From Okeania sp. KiyG1 (GTDB lineage Bacteria; Cyanobacteriota; Cyanobacteriia; Cyanobacteriales; Microcoleaceae), in contig NZ_BLZO01000121.1 in NCBI RefSeq assembly GCF_014132355.1, positions 94,571 to 158,570 of the forward strand: 64,000 nt of DNA, read 5' to 3'. Shown piece by piece: positions 669 through 30,628 of this stretch. Each line of letters opens with the position of its first letter. The first letter of the stretch is position 1. The position numbers and the translations under genes were made by a program. The notes under the pieces were generated by a model. The model saw nothing but the letters and a program-made list of their open reading frames with translations, had not been told where the DNA came from and did no database searches.

Positions 669-3600
669 ATGAACTTAATGGACGAAGAAAGGTTACAAGC
701 TTACATTTCCCTAATTCAAGAATTGCTGAATTGCCCCAGTGGGGAAGAAGCGGAAATTCTCAACAGACACCCGGAACTTATAGATGAGGGTTTGGTGCAG
801 GTGTGCAGGCAAGTAGTGGAAAATTTGCAGCGGGAAGGGCAAGAAAACCAGGCGCAATTTCTACAGCATTTGGCACAACAATTGGCAGAGTTGCTTAATC
901 TCCAGTCTCCCGGTGGTGGGGTAGCTCCCAAAAAGGCGACACCTGAAGAATATTTGAGATTTTTGATGGAGGTTTTGCAAGCTGAGGTTGACAGTAATAG
1001 TGACCCTGGGGTTGTCTATCCACTTCTAGCAAAAAATCAAGATAAACTCGACTTGACTTTTGCAGAGGTTCTCAAAGAGTGGTTTGAGTCAAAGCTTGAC
1101 CCTGATAATTCTGAGAGAAACCAATTTCTGGCACAAATTCTTAATGATTTTGCTGTTAATATTTTTAACTTTCCTTTAGGCAACGGAGCAAATAATCTGG
1201 AAATAGCTATCGCCTCCTACAAAGAAGTTTTACAAGTTTTAACTCTAGAAGCTTTTCCCCAAGACTGGGCAATGACTCAAAATAATTTGGGTCTGGCTTA
1301 CGGTAACCGCATTAGAGGAGAGCGTTCAGAAAATCTGGAAATAGCGATCGCCTTCTATCAAGAAGCTTTACAAGTCTATACCTGTGAAGTTTTTCCTCAA
1401 GACTGGGCAATGACTCAAAATAATCTGGGGAATGCATACTCAGAACGCATCAGAGGAGAGGGATCAGAGAACCTGGAGAAAGCTATCGCTTGCTACAAAG
1501 CAGCTTTACAAATTCGGACTCGTGAAGTTTTTCCCCAAGACTGGGCAATGACTCAAAACAATCTGGGAGAAGCTTATCGTACTCGCATTAGGGGAGAGCG
1601 TTCAGAGAATGTAGAGAAAGCCATTGCCTTCTACCAAGAAGCTTTACAAATTCGGACTCGTGAAGCTTTTCCCCAAGATTGGGCACTGACTCAAAATAAT
1701 CTGGGTATGGCCTATAATGACCGCATTAGAGGAGAGCATTCAGAGAATGTGGAGAAAGCCATCGCCTGCTATGAAGCAGCTTTACAAATTCGGACTCGTG
1801 AAGCTTTTCCTCAAGACTGGGCAATGACTCAAAACAATCTGGGTATTGTCTACAATGACCGCATTAGAGGAGAGCGTTCAGAGAATGTGGAGAAAGCCAT
1901 CGCCTGCTATGAAGCAGCTTTACAAGTCTATACCCTAGAAGCTTTTCCCCAAGACTGGGCAATGACTCAAAATAATCTGGGACAAGCCTATCGCACTCGC
2001 ATTAGGGGAGAGCATTCAGAAAATGTGGAGAAAGCCATCGCCTGCTATGAAGCAGCTTTACAAGTCTATACCCTAGAAGCTTTTCCCCAAAACTGGGCAG
2101 CAACCCAAAACAATTTGGGTATTAGCTACAATGACCGCATTAGAGGAGAGCGTTCAGAGAATGTGGAGATGGCCATCACCTGCTATGAAGCAGCTTTACA
2201 AGTTCGTACTCGTGAAGCTTTTCCTCAAGAGTGGGCAATGGCTCAAAATAATCTGGGTATTGCTTACTCAAACCGCATCAAAGGAGAGCAGTCAGAGAAT
2301 ATAGAAATAGCTATTGCCTACTACGAAGCAGCTTTGCAAGTCCGTACCCGTGAAGCTTTTCCCCTAGACTGGGCAACAACTCAAAATAATTTGGGGAATG
2401 CCTACAATGACCGCATCCAGGGAGAGCGTTCAGAGAATGTGGAGATGGCAATCGCCTACCACAAAGCAGTTTTACAAGTTCGTCGGACTCGTGAAACTTT
2501 CCCCCAAGAATGGGCAAGAACTCAAAATAATCTGGGGAATACCTACCGTAACCGCATCCAGGGAGAGCGTTCAGAGAATGTGGAGATGGCGATTGCCTAC
2601 TACAAGGCAGCTTTACAAGTCCGTACCCGTGAAACTTTTCCCCAAGAGTGGGCAACAACTCAAAATAATCTGGGTATTGCTTACTGGAACCGTATCAAAG
2701 GAGAAAAGTCAGAGAATATGGAGAGGGCGATTGCCTGCTACAAGGCAGCTTTACAAGTCCGTACCCGTGAAGCTTTTCCCCAAGAATGGGCAAGAACTCA
2801 AAATAATTTGGGTCTTGCCTACTCAGACTGCATCCAAGGAGATCGCTCAGAGAATATAGAAATAGCTATTACCTACTACGAAACAGCTTTACAAGTCTTA
2901 ACCCTAGATGCTTTTCCCCAAGAGTGGGCAACAACTCAAAATAATTTAGGAAATGCTTACGAAAACCGCATTCAAGGAGAGCAATGGGAGAATATGGAAC
3001 AAGCGATTGACTGCTACCAAGCAGCATTACAAGTCCATACCCCTGACTTTTTCCCTCTCGACTGCCTCCGAACAGGTCGCAACCTGGGCAACCTGGGCAT
3101 TGATATGGAAAACTGGGAAATTGCTATCTCTGGTTACAACCAAGCTATCCTTGGTGTAGAGAAAAGTCGCTATTGGGCAGTCTCCGAACTTACTAAAAGG
3201 GAAATTATAGAAAATAACCTAATCATTTATGAAAAAATGGTGCAAGCGTGCATCAAGCATCAAGACTATCGCCAAGCTATCCTCACTGTTGAGCGTAGTA
3301 AATCTCAAACATTAATCGAACTCCTCAACAGTGCCAACCTCTATCCCAAAAATGCCACCGATGACCAAAAACAAAGCATCAGCGAATTACGTCGCCAAAT
3401 CGCCTCCTACCAACAACAACTTATGGATAGTAGGCAACAGGCAACAGGCAACAGGCAAGAATTAATAGGAGGAGGTTTGGCAGAAGAAAGAGGAGAAAAT
3501 TTTTCTTACGTACCCGAAGCCAACATCCGTACCCAACTCCAAACTGCCAATCAAGAATTCCAACAACTCCTAGAAGAAATTGGCGACTCAGACTTCGCCC

Positions 3601-24214: not shown

Positions 24215-27200
24215 CTACAACTTTCCCACTCCCCCACCACCAGGAGTTTCAATGACAAATACATCACCAACATTCATCTCCACAGTGGCTGTACTCCCCA
24301 ATTCTTCAATTTTCCCATCACTGCGTTCTACATAATTTTTTCCTACTAAACCATTACCCCCACCATTCAAACCAGGGGGGGAAACAACCCGATGACCTGA
24401 TAATATCCCGGCAGTCATCTGCTCCAAGAAACGTATCTTCCGAATTACTCCATTGCCACCTTTATATAAACCTTCACCTCCACTCCCGGAACGAATGGCA
24501 AAATTTTCTAGCAATACTGGAAATCGCCATTCCAAAACTTCGGGGTCGGTTAACCGGGAGTTGGTCATGTGAGTATGTACTGCGTCGGTGCCATGAAAGT
24601 TAATACCTGCACCGGAACCTCCACAAATGGTTTCATAATATTGATATTTACTATTGCCAAAGGTGAAATTATTCATTGTTCCTTGGGAGGATGCCATTAT
24701 TCCTAAGGCATTGTATAAAGTATCGGCTATGGTTTGAGAAGTTTCGACATTTCCAGCGACAATAGCTGCTGGATATTTGGGGTCTAACATACTACCTTTG
24801 GGGATAATAATTTCTAATGGTTTGAGACAACCTGCATTGAGGGGAATATCATCATCAACTAGGGTACGAAAGACATATAAAACTGCTGCTTTACATACTG
24901 CGGTTGGTGCATTGAAGTTTGTGGGAAGTTGGGGAGATGTTCCTGTAAAGTCTATTTTGGCACTGAGATTTTTTTTGTCGAGACTGACAGAAACTTGAAT
25001 TTTATTGCCGTCATCGAAGGTGGATGTGTAAATTTTTTTGTTGAGTGATGAAGAGAGTTTTTTGATTGCTCGCCGTACTGATGTTTCGGCGTTATTTTGG
25101 ACAAATTTCATGTATGCTTGTACGGTTTCTAATCCATATTTTTCTGTCATTTTTTGCAGTTCTTGTGTACCTTTTTCATTTGCTGCTATTTGTGCTTGGA
25201 GGTCGGCGATATTTTGGCTGGTGTTTCTGGCAGGATATTTGCCGGAGGTGAGGATGTCTAATATTTCTGTTTCTTGGAATTTTCCGTTTTTGACGAGTTG
25301 GAAGTTATCTATTAATATTCCTTCTTCTTCTACTGTTTTACTATGGGGTGGCATGGAACCGGGGGTAATTCCTCCAATATCTGCATGATGACCGCGGGAG
25401 GCTACATAAAATATGGGAGTTTCTATTTTTTCTGTCTTTTCAGAGGGAGTTAGGCAAGTAGTTGTTTCATTTTCAGAAATAATATTTTGATTGGGAATAG
25501 GGTCTACGGATTTTAATTTTTGAGTGATAGATTTATCACCTAAAGCAATATTTGTATTGGATAAAGTTTCTTCACTGGTATTAGTTTCAGGAAAAGTATT
25601 TGTCTGATTCTCCCAAATTAATTTTTCATTGCCAGGAAGCTGTACAGATTTTAATTTTTGAGTGATAGATTTATCCCCTAAAGTGATTTTTGTATTGGAT
25701 AAAGTTTCTTCGCTAGGAAACTGTACAGATTTCAACTTTTGAGTAATAGATTTATCGCCTAAAGTGATTTTTGTATCGGATAAAGTTTCTTCAGTTGAAT
25801 TAGTTTCAGGAAAAATATTTGTCTGATTTTGCCAAATTAATTTTTCATTGCCAGGAAACTGTACAGATTTCAACTTTTGAGTAATAGATTTATCGCCTAA
25901 AGTGATTTTTGTATCGGATAAAGTTTCTTCAGTTGAATTAGTTTCAGGAAAAATATTTGTCTGATTTTGCCAAATTAATTTTTCATTGCCAGGAAGCTGT
26001 ACAGATTTTAATTTTTGAGTAATAGATTTATCGTCTAAACCAATATTTGTATTGGATAAAGTTTCTTCACTGGTATTAGTTTCAGGAAAAATATTTGTCT
26101 GATTTTCCCAAATTAATTTTTCATTGTCAGGAAGTTGTACAGACTTCAACTTTTGAGTAATAGATTTATCGTCTAAACCAATATTTGTATTGGATAAAGT
26201 TTCTTCACTGGTATTAGTTTCAGGAAAAGTATTTGTCTGATTTTCCCAAATTAATTTTTCATTGCTAGGAAACTGTACAGATTTTAATTTTTGAGTGATA
26301 GATTTATCGTCTAAACCAATATTTGTATTGGATAAAGTTTCTTCGCCAGGAAACTGTACAGATTTTAATTTTTGAGTAATAGATTTATCGTCTAAACCAA
26401 TATTTGTATCGGATAAAGTTTCTTCACTGGTATTAGTTTCAGGAAAAATATTTGTCTGATTCTCCCAAATTAATTTTTCATTGCTAGGAAACTGTACAGA
26501 TTTTAATTTTTGAGTGATAGATTTATCGTCTAAACCAATATTTGTATTGGATAAAGTTTCTTCGCCAGGAAACTGTACAGATTTTAATTTTTGAGTAATA
26601 GATTTATCGTCTAAACCAATATTTGTATCGGATAAAGTTTCTTCACTGGTATTAGTTTCAGGAAAAATATTTGTCTGATTTTCCCAAATTAATTTTTCAT
26701 TGTCAGGAAGTTGTACAGACTTCAACTTTTGAGTGATAGATTTATCCCCTAAAGTTATTTTTGTATCGGATAAAGTTTCTTCACTGGTATTAGTTTCAGG
26801 AACAATATTTGTCTGATTCTCCCAAATTAATTTTTCATTGCTAGGAAACTGTACAGATTTTAATTTTTGAGTAATAGATTTATCGTCTAAACCAATATTT
26901 GTATCGGATAAAGTTTCTTCGCCAGGAAACTGTACAGATTTTAATTTTTGAGTAATAGATTTATCGTCTAAACCAATATTTGTATCGGATAAAGTTTCTT
27001 CACTGGTATTAGTTTCAGGAAAAATATTTGTCTGATTTTCCCAAATTAATTTTTCATTGTCAGGAAGTTGTACAGACTTCAACTTTTGAGTAATAGATTT
27101 ATCGTCTAAACCAATATTTGTATTGGATAAAGTTTCTTCACTGGTATTAGTTTCAGGAACAATATTTGTCTGATTTTCCCAAATTAATTTTTCATTGCCA

Positions 27201-30109
27201 GGAAGCTGTACAGACTTCAACTTTTGAGTAATAGATTTATCGTCTAAAGCAATCTTTGTATCGGATAAAGTTTCCTCACTGGAATTAGTTTCAGGAACAA
27301 TATTTGTCTGATTTTCCCAAATTAATTTTTCATTGCCAGGAAGCTGTACAGACTTCAACTTTTGAGTAATAGATTTATCGTCTAAAGCAATCTTTGTATC
27401 GGATAAAGTTTCCTCACTGGAATTAGTTTCAGGAAAAGTATTATTGTTCTTGTTTTGTAAATCATGGTTAGCAATGACAGAAGGAACTTTTGGTTTTTGT
27501 AGAGGTGGAAATACGGGGGTAATAACTGTTATGTCTGGTAAATGAGTACCACCGTTATAGGGATTATTTAAAACATAAACGTCTCCTGGTTTGAGGATAT
27601 CTTTTTTATCAGAAATTACGGCATTAACACTTTCGCTCATGGAGCCTAAATGTATGGGAATGTGAGGTGCATTGGCAACTAATTGACCGTCTCTATCGAA
27701 GATGGCGCAGGAAAAATCTAGTCTTTCTTTGATGTTTACTGAGGAACCAGTTTTTTGTAATGTTATTCCCATTTGTTCGGCGATCGCTCTAAATAGGTTA
27801 TTAAATATTTCTAGCATTACTGGGTCTGCTGATGTTGGGATTTTTGTTTGAGATGTTGTGGTTGGATCTAGAGATTTTTCTGTGTTTTTGCTCTTGGTTA
27901 ATACGAGGTGATTTTTGAGGGTTAATTCTGCTTGCCATCCTGGTTCAATAATATTTGTTCCGGTTTTTTCTATGATTAAGGCGGGACTATTAATTTTTGT
28001 TCCTGGTTGTAGGTTTTCTCGTAGATAAATAGGTGTATCTTGCCATTTTCCGGCGGTGTAGATTTTTGTTTTTGTAATTGGAGTTATGGCAGTTTTTTGA
28101 GTGGGAGAATTTTCTGTTTCTTCTGGGGTTTCCATTTGTTGAATAAGTTCTAGGGAAACTGCTTCAATAATTAGAGATTTTTCTGTCATTATAAATCCAT
28201 ATCTTTGTTGATGGGCTGTTTCAAATTCGGATTTCATTATGGAGATATTTTCGGCAAAGTCTACGATTAATGTTGAGTCGCTGCCTTGATATTTGATGTG
28301 AACTTTCGATAAGGATATTTGATTTTGATTGGAGTTTATTTCTTGTTTAGCTTCAGTTTCTAGTGTGGCTAAAATTTCTTTAATTTCTGGCAATAATTCT
28401 GGAGTTAGTATTTTTTCAACTGCCTTTTCTTTCATAACTCGAATATCTGCCAATCCCATGCCATAAGCTGATAAAACTCCGGCATAAGGATGAATAAATA
28501 TTTGTTTCATCCCCAAAGCATCAGCAATTAAACAAGCGTGTTGACCGCCAGCTCCACCAAAACAACAAAGAGTATATTCTGAAACATCATAACCTTTCTC
28601 CAAAGAGATTTTTTTAATCGCATTTGCCATTTTTTCCACAGCGATCGCTAAATATCCACTAGCTACTTCTTCTGGTTTTTTACTATTACCTATTTCTACT
28701 GCTAACTGAGTAAACTTTTCTCGAACAATCTCCAAATTTAAAGGTAAATTTCCATCTTTCCCAAAGACTTTCGGGAAAAATTCCGGCTGTATTTTTCCGA
28801 CCATGACATTACAATCTGTCACTGTTAAAGGTCCGCCTTTTCCATAAGCAGCAGGTCCAGGATTTGCCCCAGCAGATTCAGGTCCGACACGATAACGAGA
28901 ACCATCAAAAAATAAAATTGAACCTCCACCAGCAGCCACAGTATGTATCGACATCATCGGAGTTTGTAACCGTACCCCTGCAATTTCTGTTTCAAATTCT
29001 CGCTCGTATTCTATTGTTTTATTTTCTGCTCCAGCGTAATGAGCAACATCAGTAGAAGTACCGCCCATATCAAAACTAATTATCTTATGAAAACCAGCCA
29101 TTTTACTTGTTTGAACTGCTCCAACAATTCCACCAGCAGGTCCAGATAAAATACTATCTTTACCTTGAAATTTTTGAGCATCTGTTAAACCGCCATTTGA
29201 CTGCATAAACATTAATTTAACTGCCTGTCTTTCTGAAATATTGCGACTATTTAAAACACCTTTTCCAAAAGTTAAAGTTAAATCTTTTTTCTTCTCTCCT
29301 CCTCCTCCTGCTTCACCACCTATTTCCTTTCTTTCAAAACTAAGTTCTGAGGAATTTTGGATAGAAGATATATTCTCTGTTTCTAAATTTTCAAAGCAGT
29401 TCAAAGAATTACTGACTTGATTGACATATCTTAGTAAAATTGGTGATAAATAAGCATCAACAACAGTAGTATCTCCCCGACTAACTAATTTCATTAAAGG
29501 GCTAACTTCGTGAGATACAGATATTTGAGTAAATCCTATTTCTTGAGCAATTTCTTTAATTTTTTGCTCATGCTTCGGGTAACGATAACCGTGCATTAAA
29601 ACAATGGCGCAACTTCTAATTCCTGCTGCATAAACTTCTTGAAGTTGAATAGTTAACTCCGTTGTTTGAAGTGGAATAATTTCTTCACCTTTCGCCGTAT
29701 AACGTTCCTCTACTTCAATAACTTTCTCATACAACATTTCCGGCAAAATAATTTCTCTAGCAAAAATATTTGGTCGGTTTTGATAACCAACTCTTAGAGC
29801 ATCTTTAAAACCCTTCGTAATAACTAAAACTGTACGGTCGCCCTTCCTTTCTAATAAAGCATTTGTAGCGACAGTAGTACCCATTTTAATCACTTCTATT
29901 TCTTCAGAAAAAATGGGTTGATGTTGAAGAATTCCTAATATTTCACGAATTCCTTGTACTGGAGCATCTTGGTAGCGATCGGGATTTTCTGATAATAGTT
30001 TATGAATAATAATTTGACCGTCCGGAGCTTTAGCCACTATGTCAGTAAATGTACCTCCACGGTCTATCCAAAATTGCCAAGAGTTGTTAGTAATAGATGT
30101 GTTAGTCAT
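24215..30109 (-). CDS. 5-oxoprolinase / hydantoinase A-B fusion with giant tandem-repeat insert
   Basis: This 1964-residue protein is a fused HyuA-HyuB enzyme, the ATP-dependent 5-oxoprolinase/N-methylhydantoinase type that opens lactam rings (for example 5-oxoproline to glutamate). HyuA signatures: [14 protein letters not shown] (13-26), [65 protein letters not shown]. HyuB signatures: [26 protein letters not shown] region upstream, [23 protein letters not shown], then after the insert [32 protein letters not shown], and a glycine-rich end ([11 protein letters not shown]). Usual family length is near 1200-1300; the excess is about 690 residues of tandem repeats (about 880-1565) plus a short linker near 236-290. 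Both halves otherwise keep their motifs and the frame is open, so the gene is probably expressed. It stands alone; a decayed copy of its first codons lies upstream. Confidence 0.93.
   Translation of the reverse strand: [1964 protein letters not shown]
25480..27450 (-). repeat. In-frame tandem repeats (138-bp unit) within the oxoprolinase gene
   Basis: There are sixteen copies of the core EETLS(D/N)T(N/K)I.[12 protein letters not shown]. Full units are 46 residues (138 bp) and include [19 protein letters not shown]. Four short units lack that part and read [11 protein letters not shown]. Variants such as KIALDD, NIGLDD and KITLGD fall in blocks, a sign of unequal crossover or slippage. The frame is kept throughout. 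Confidence 0.97.
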
Positions 30110-30252: not shown

Positions 30253-30628
30253 TTATAATTGCAAAACTTTAACAGTTTTATCATCTCTTCCACTCACCAA
30301 AAATAATTGATCTGAGCTAAACATATAAAGGAGGCAGTCTACATTTTCTGATAGTAGTTTATAAATCATAATTTTACCGAAGAATTAAGAATTAAATAAT
30401 TAAATAATTAAATAATTTAGGTTTAAAGCCTCCCCTTTCAAGGGGAAACAAGAAAAATTTTCCTTTTATTCAATCCTCTTCCTTTTAGGGAGAGGTAATT
30501 ATCAATTATCCATTATCAATTATCAATTATTGAACATCCGTAGCTTTAGCAACTAGGTCAGTAAATGTTCCTATACAGTCTATTCAAAATTGCCAAGAGT
30601 TGTTAGTAATGGATGTATTAGTGGGACT
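30253..30628 (-). pseudogene. Chimeric relic: duplicated hyu 5' end joined to a WD40 tail
   Basis: Read on the minus strand from 30625, it gives [12 protein letters not shown], stop, IDCIGTFTDLVAKAT, closely matching the first codons of the oxoprolinase gene ([28 protein letters not shown]). After a MITE-B (30378-30535) it continues GKIMIYKLLSENVDCLLYMF (hyu has [12 protein letters not shown]), then SSDQLFLVSGRDDKTVKVLQL and a stop at 30253-30255, which is a WD40 blade. It has no start codon and an internal stop. Confidence 0.7.
30378..30535. repeat. MITE-B copy
   Basis: It starts GAAGAATTAAGAATTAAATAATT, has AGGTTTAAAGCCTCCCCTTTC in the middle and ends GAGGTAATTATCAATTATCC. It is inserted in the chimeric hyu relic. 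Confidence 0.7.

Follow-up and report, generated by a model that had tools for sequence, protein, structure and literature searches.

An enzyme gene of Okeania sp. KiyG1 carries 16 tandem, in-frame repeat units in a turn of its HyuB half, between two strands that hold putative metal ligands. We consider it probable that this array is a coding minisatellite, filtered for reading frame, that occupies a permissive loop in a working enzyme. Units would be gained and lost through replication slippage or unequal recombination between copies, while nonsense or out-of-frame products would be eliminated by selection on the enzyme. Such a frame filter would be expected, as the last metal ligand, in the C-terminal part of HyuB, is encoded downstream in the same frame and the genome yielded no other copy of the gene. 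The array would be translated and form a mostly disordered surface loop, whose length may be tolerated since the turn has kept its base intact. Most likely each unit holds one possibly constrained peptide, in an array that is translated and tolerated.

Among its relatives this metabolic enzyme, of which only one gene was found, offers a natural series in which the same unit is present in 1 to 16 copies. With such a series one can measure what loop length is tolerated in an active-site hairpin, and whether peptides acquire a function once repeated. The finding also draws attention to the abundance of minisatellites in the two Okeania genomes sampled, where they make up about 6% and 3% of the bases examined. 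In a literature search, with subscription papers mostly outside its reach, none of the titles and abstracts dealt with the array.

The enzyme and the site of the insert

The window, the whole stretch of DNA analysed, is 64,000 nucleotides long and comes from a genome of 10.98 Mb in 198 contigs (the window genome, G000). At 24215..30109 on the reverse strand it contains an ORF of 1,964 residues, open along its full length, in which the Pfam domains Hydant_A_N, Hydantoinase_A, Hydant_A_C and Hydantoinase_B follow in order. From the ORF, these domains and a genome search that revealed no other HyuB gene, we annotated it as a fused HyuA/HyuB enzyme of 5-oxoprolinase (OPLAH) type. The closest solved relative is N-methylhydantoinase 7hk5 (E 2e-129), and the ORF falls below the NCBIfam cut-offs for both caprolactamase and acetophenone carboxylase. 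Family membership suggests 5-oxoproline as the substrate, with ATP-dependent opening as the probable reaction. Like other members of the superfamily (5-oxoprolinase, N-methylhydantoinase, caprolactamase, acetone carboxylase), it has the Hydantoinase A and B domains and residues aligned to the metal-ligand tetrad.

To place the insert, a cyanobacterial HyuB profile was aligned with caprolactamase CapB (6yra_B) and acetone carboxylase alpha (5svb_A). The available text of the CapB report names Asp41, His99, Asp102 and His124 as metal ligands (PMC8453981), and that of the acetone carboxylase report names His150, Asp153, His175 and Glu89 (PMC5543143). On the reverse strand of the window, Asp798 (27716..27718) aligns with CapB Asp41, His856 (27542..27544) with CapB His99 and acetone carboxylase His150, Asp859 (27533..27535) with Asp102 and Asp153, and His1574 (25388..25390) with His124 and His175. 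All four residues were mapped through 6yra_B; through 5svb_A the two His and the second Asp were counted. The Asp-His-Asp-His tetrad thus appears complete by alignment and is spread over either side of the insert, in line with the first-pass annotation, which had seen the enzyme motifs persist on both sides. His1574 comes 715 residues after Asp859, whereas the corresponding distance is 22 residues in CapB and acetone carboxylase. The HyuB alignment that the annotation had proposed puts the insert in the turn that joins the two metal-binding strands (D859 to H1574), which in CapB holds Lys112-Gly113 (counted by hand on the alignment). Judging from these solved relatives, the insert would lie at the protein surface.

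Structure of the array

The insert occupies 25412..27508 (reverse strand; aa 868-1566), with 699 residues between HLPDITVITPVF and FYVASRGHHADIGG, close to the roughly 690 residues of repeats first estimated for this interval. Within it, the array proper (25505..27415, reverse strand; aa 899-1535) consists of 16 units, 11 of 138 bp, four of 81 bp and a last one fused to the flank. It lies between two linkers of 31 aa on the same strand, the left one (27416..27508) resembling the single-copy Trichodesmium proteins and the right one (25412..25504) resembling single-copy relatives. The peptide DKSITQKLKSV occurs exactly 16 times in the insert, at spacings of 46 (11 times) or 27 residues (four times), so that the earlier count of sixteen repeats with a full unit of 46 residues (138 bp) stands. 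Cutting the array at EETLS gives 11 units of 46 residues, four of 27 and a final unit that continues into the flank. Tandem Repeats Finder (TRF) reports periods of 138, 81, 219 and 357 bp with scores up to 1700, which excludes a chance origin. The frame is intact in all units, the four short ones included, as had been noted; the remaining two same-strand frames contain 47 and 77 stops within the insert.

The charge-hydropathy composition of the array falls on the disordered side and that of the enzyme part on the folded side. Within the unit, the DKSITQKLKSV core has the highest helical hydrophobic moment (0.50-0.53). No Pfam repeat family matched the array above cut-off, and a search of the unit profile against solved structures gave a best match with an E of only 0.11; a known repeat domain of solenoid or adhesin type was rejected on these two results. 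Weak Pfam and NCBIfam matches in the array (BsuPI, choice_anch_M, SelT) were under the cut-off and were set aside.

Copy number and turn length among relatives

The comparison used one genome per species, with array lengths taken from draft assemblies. When 62 family genomes were searched with a profile, the unit turned up in 12, all from the genus of the window genome (6 of 6 genomes) and a sister genus (6 of 7); the sister-genus genome without it (G032) is 81% complete. Within the genus, DKSITQKLKSV copies number 16 in the window genome, 11 in SIO3B5 (G001), 14 in SIO2C9 (G004), 14 in SIO1I7 (G005; four in shortened form), and one each in SIO2B3 (G002) and O. hirsuta (G003). In the sister genus, Okeania SIO3I5 (G017) has 15 copies and Okeania SIO2F4 (G022) at least six, in an array cut by a contig end, while three Trichodesmium genomes and Hydrocoleum CS-953 have one unit copy each, in a one-unit insert of 85-101 residues in the HyuB turn between the metal-binding strands. 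The single copy of T. erythraeum has decayed to NNYITQKSKYI. In total, six Okeania-type genomes, the window genome included, have the unit multiplied. Unit spacings across genomes are 46, 27, 26, 12, 50 and 52 residues, all whole codons in one open frame, and every array version seen in the Okeania-type genomes compared keeps the reading frame.

In the loci read outside the unit-bearing genera, the turn is 6 to about 28 residues long, save in G016 and G025, both from a third genus, where the same HyuB turn holds an array of 53 residues with four copies of an unrelated 11-residue unit (GGNRQENSLLK-like). The turn has therefore been expanded at least twice, with differing sequences. The earlier statement that ordinary HyuB proteins have only a short turn holds for most relatives and fails for these two genomes. 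A tree of the HyuB flanks, built from 11 unit-bearing genomes and four outgroups (SIO2F4, with its contig end, was left out, and outgroups G046 and G049 fell out in a motif search), leaves 7 of 12 inner branches open. For the single copies of G002 and G003, the left boundary resembles that of the array-bearing G001, which suggests that copies may have been lost rather than never gained.

The array resembles coding minisatellites (intragenic VNTRs) in its head-to-tail whole-codon units, its block duplications and a copy number that varies among close relatives: the unit length is a multiple of three and the six same-genus genomes have 1-16 copies. Coding minisatellites of bacteria are described mostly from surface or naturally repetitive proteins. 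Unlike the usual ones, the Okeania array lies in a metabolic enzyme, within the hairpin at the metal site, and no further copy of the gene was found.

A second variable loop is found in the HyuA half, at about aa 238-294 (29228..29398, reverse strand; edges approximate, from match ends). Before the motif MFMQSNGG, this loop holds other tandem sequences of about 45 residues in G017 (two copies), G035 (three) and G012 (two), and in G001 a repeat of GTGNREQGTG type.

Selection on the unit

In the window genome, all core peptides are identical (16 of 16) and their codons differ, with a pooled pS of 0.31 and pN of 0.02 (codons 12-23). For the unit tree, 77 of the 82 units were used, four G005 cores with 12-residue spacing and one G001 core with 26-residue spacing being dropped. 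Non-homologous codons were masked, namely the left ends of the first units in G001, G002 and G003, the right flanks of last units and the left ends after odd spacings. Parsimony then gives 318 changes with no nonsense change, against 15.3 expected, and no unit contains a stop. Single-base steps that pass through a stop depend on the order of changes within a codon; there are two in the four-gene run and one with IQ-TREE.

On the FastTree tree, the core (codons 13-23) shows 38 synonymous against 42 non-synonymous changes, and the rest of the unit 57 against 181 (OR 2.9, p 1e-4); the IQ-TREE tree gives OR 2.6 (p 1e-3). With a neutral N/S of about 2.8-3.0, the core looks constrained and the remainder near neutral. 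These tests are to be read with the changes partly non-independent, as units recombine, and with the core chosen beforehand for looking constant. Shuffles of codon order reach the observed minimum in 1,618 of 20,000 runs, and a homogeneous null does so in 50 of 20,000. By subset, the effect stems from the four same-genus arrays (OR 4.7, p 7e-4; 50 of 55 cores used) and is absent from the two sister-genus (g7) arrays (OR 1.5, p 0.44) and from four single-copy genes (OR 1.1, p 1). Without masking, the run has 475 changes with 22.3 nonsense changes expected, the core 43 synonymous and 43 non-synonymous changes and the rest 88 and 301 (OR 3.4, p 1e-6), and 253 of 20,000 codon-order shuffles reach the minimum.

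We tentatively conclude that the amino acids of the core peptide are under some constraint, which shows clearly in the same-genus arrays alone. The first-pass description of a constant, helix-like DKSITQKLKSV is thus borne out for the helical moment and for these arrays, and is less clear elsewhere. The constraint may be weak and may serve, for example, a short amphipathic helix that keeps the loop soluble or packed. As a counterpoint to a neutral filler, identical cores with differing codons and an OR of 4.7 exceed what neutral filler predicts.

The same results bear on a reading in which the array is a selected multivalent tag or scaffold, where the amphipathic helix of each unit would bind a partner, the enzyme itself or a membrane and copy number would tune the clustering of the enzyme. 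The excess of synonymous changes in the core on both trees, its helical moment and the retention of at least one core in all 12 unit-bearing genomes speak for it, though the persistence of one unit proves little, since deletion between repeats always leaves one. The two sister-genus arrays and four single-copy genes without constraint and the frequency of the shuffles speak against it, and its odds were lowered when the core effect shrank after masking (OR from 3.4 to 2.9; shuffles from 253 to 1,618). Moreover, the unit is present just once in two same-genus species and in Trichodesmium, with a decayed copy in T. erythraeum, and an unrelated array occupies the same turn in G016 and G025. Since relatives with a single copy exist, many copies would hardly be required, and a scaffold, though possible, need not be assumed. 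On balance we regard it as unlikely. Slightly less probable still is its more specific form, a tether tuned by copy number, in which a disordered loop of 700 residues next to the metal site, bearing as many as 16 amphipathic helices, would be selected for enzyme clustering or partner recruitment, the number of helices being set by a genome-wide minisatellite engine.

Assembly, splicing and gene decay

The array could be an assembly artefact, a short repeat inflated or scrambled in a draft genome, and the exact repeats of 218 bp in the window genome and 434 bp in G004 would be hard for short reads alone. We find this very improbable, as six separate genomes have arrays with genome-specific variants, all in frame, and the window contains no N; the exact copy number may nonetheless be wrong.

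Inteins and introns typically lie between conserved motifs, and so does the array, which might then be excised as an intein or intron, or skipped by translational bypass, to give a mature enzyme with an ordinary turn. This too has little to commend it: no Rfam match over the gathering score and no Pfam intein domain was found, the RNA structure is no better than that of shuffles (z +0.87; 633 nt tested), and the kept frame and absence of stops would be unnecessary. An intein or intron was accordingly rejected by splicing domain, structured RNA and shuffle test (Pfam, Rfam, shuffles).

It is just as doubtful that the array grows in a decaying gene, the enzyme being no longer needed. The HyuB flanks of the array have pN/pS of 0.07-0.16 (13 pairs examined), about 0.1, and HyuB on either side is firmly under strong purifying selection. 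The residues aligned to the four metal ligands are kept, and five of the six same-genus genes are a single open frame. These facts outweigh two signs of breakage, a gene split in one species and a broken copy of the gene start upstream in the window. The HyuB locus is single in all six same-genus genomes, the window genome among these, and its Hydantoinase_B Pfam match is interrupted at profile positions 106/111 in five of them and at 106/102 in the window genome.

The split gene is that of O. hirsuta, where the enzyme frame, through a real break or a draft error, lies in two ORFs of 303 and 1,047 residues with the break within the HyuA half. The broken copy (30518..30622, reverse strand) is a decayed version of roughly the first 35 codons of the gene, with stops, and lies about 400 bp upstream.

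Minisatellites in the sampled genomes

We ran a TRF census of arrays with at least 200 bp, at least 2.5 copies and a period of at least 18, counting ORFs of 200 or more residues. The sample of the window genome comprised 858,570 bp in stretches of five contigs (C94, C93, C121, C85 and C118; 7.8% of the assembly, window included). It turned out that it contains 53 arrays, covering 6.25% of bases. Most lie outside ORFs (38 of 53), with a median period of 128 bp and periods that are not multiples of three in 27 of 38. The 15 arrays inside ORFs (14 ORFs) all have periods that are multiples of three (15 of 15), partly by construction, since a long ORF cannot contain an out-of-frame array with stops. 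In 400 kb of Okeania G002 there are 16 arrays (3.2% of bases), 12 of them outside ORFs. The two controls, G020 and G025 (a single 400-kb stretch of each), have six and four arrays with none outside ORFs, and repeats make up 0.8% and 3.5% of their bases, the latter mostly one 13-kb array in an ORF of 4,852 residues. By this comparison, what sets Okeania apart is its intergenic arrays and not the overall amount of repeats.

As intergenic minisatellites, with periods similar to that of the enzyme array, occur in the two sampled Okeania genomes and in neither control sample, the mutational source of the enzyme array looks like a general process, and the array itself looks like a coding, frame-filtered instance of it. 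The earlier proposal of a loop expanding by slippage or unequal crossover gains from the 1-16 copies among same-genus genomes, the repeated 219- and 357-bp blocks and the commonness of minisatellites in the sampled part of the window genome. Trichodesmium genomes have been called repeat-rich in PMC9950141, and these repeat-rich genomes and their relatives belong to the same clade as Okeania. The repeats treated in the available text of PMC9950141 are paralogues, transposases, retrons and group II introns, and not intergenic minisatellites or the HyuA/HyuB enzyme.

Many units have short stretches in common with other arrays: among 74 consensus units, genic and intergenic, there were 114 BLAST rows across arrays (overlapping rows counted), so that not every array has a sequence independent of the others. 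The enzyme unit had no match to other arrays in a DNA search of the whole genome: all matches with E <0.001 lie inside its own array (17 of 17), and the 39 others listed have an E of 0.378 or more. That the array is a selfish in-frame repeat element inserting into genes, which the first-pass annotation had suggested and which its long, modular, in-frame build would fit, is the least probable reading, since the search for the unit elsewhere, there proposed as a check, found it in the enzyme gene only, both in the genome and among the 62 family genomes (82 of 82 matches; 12 genomes).

About half of the 14 array-bearing ORFs encode what we take, by eye, to be ordinary TPR, WD40 or HEAT-like proteins. 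Besides, L128:9573-11777 encodes a polyprenyl synthetase with five 38-residue repeats in an N-terminal extension, and L118:4412-7129 a nitrite/sulfite reductase-like protein with a C-terminal extension of tandem repeats. In the window, about 13 units of 138 bp at 1194-3046 lie in an ORF of 1,374 residues for a protein that is TPR-like by eye; that it has the 138-bp period in common with the enzyme array is apparently a coincidence.
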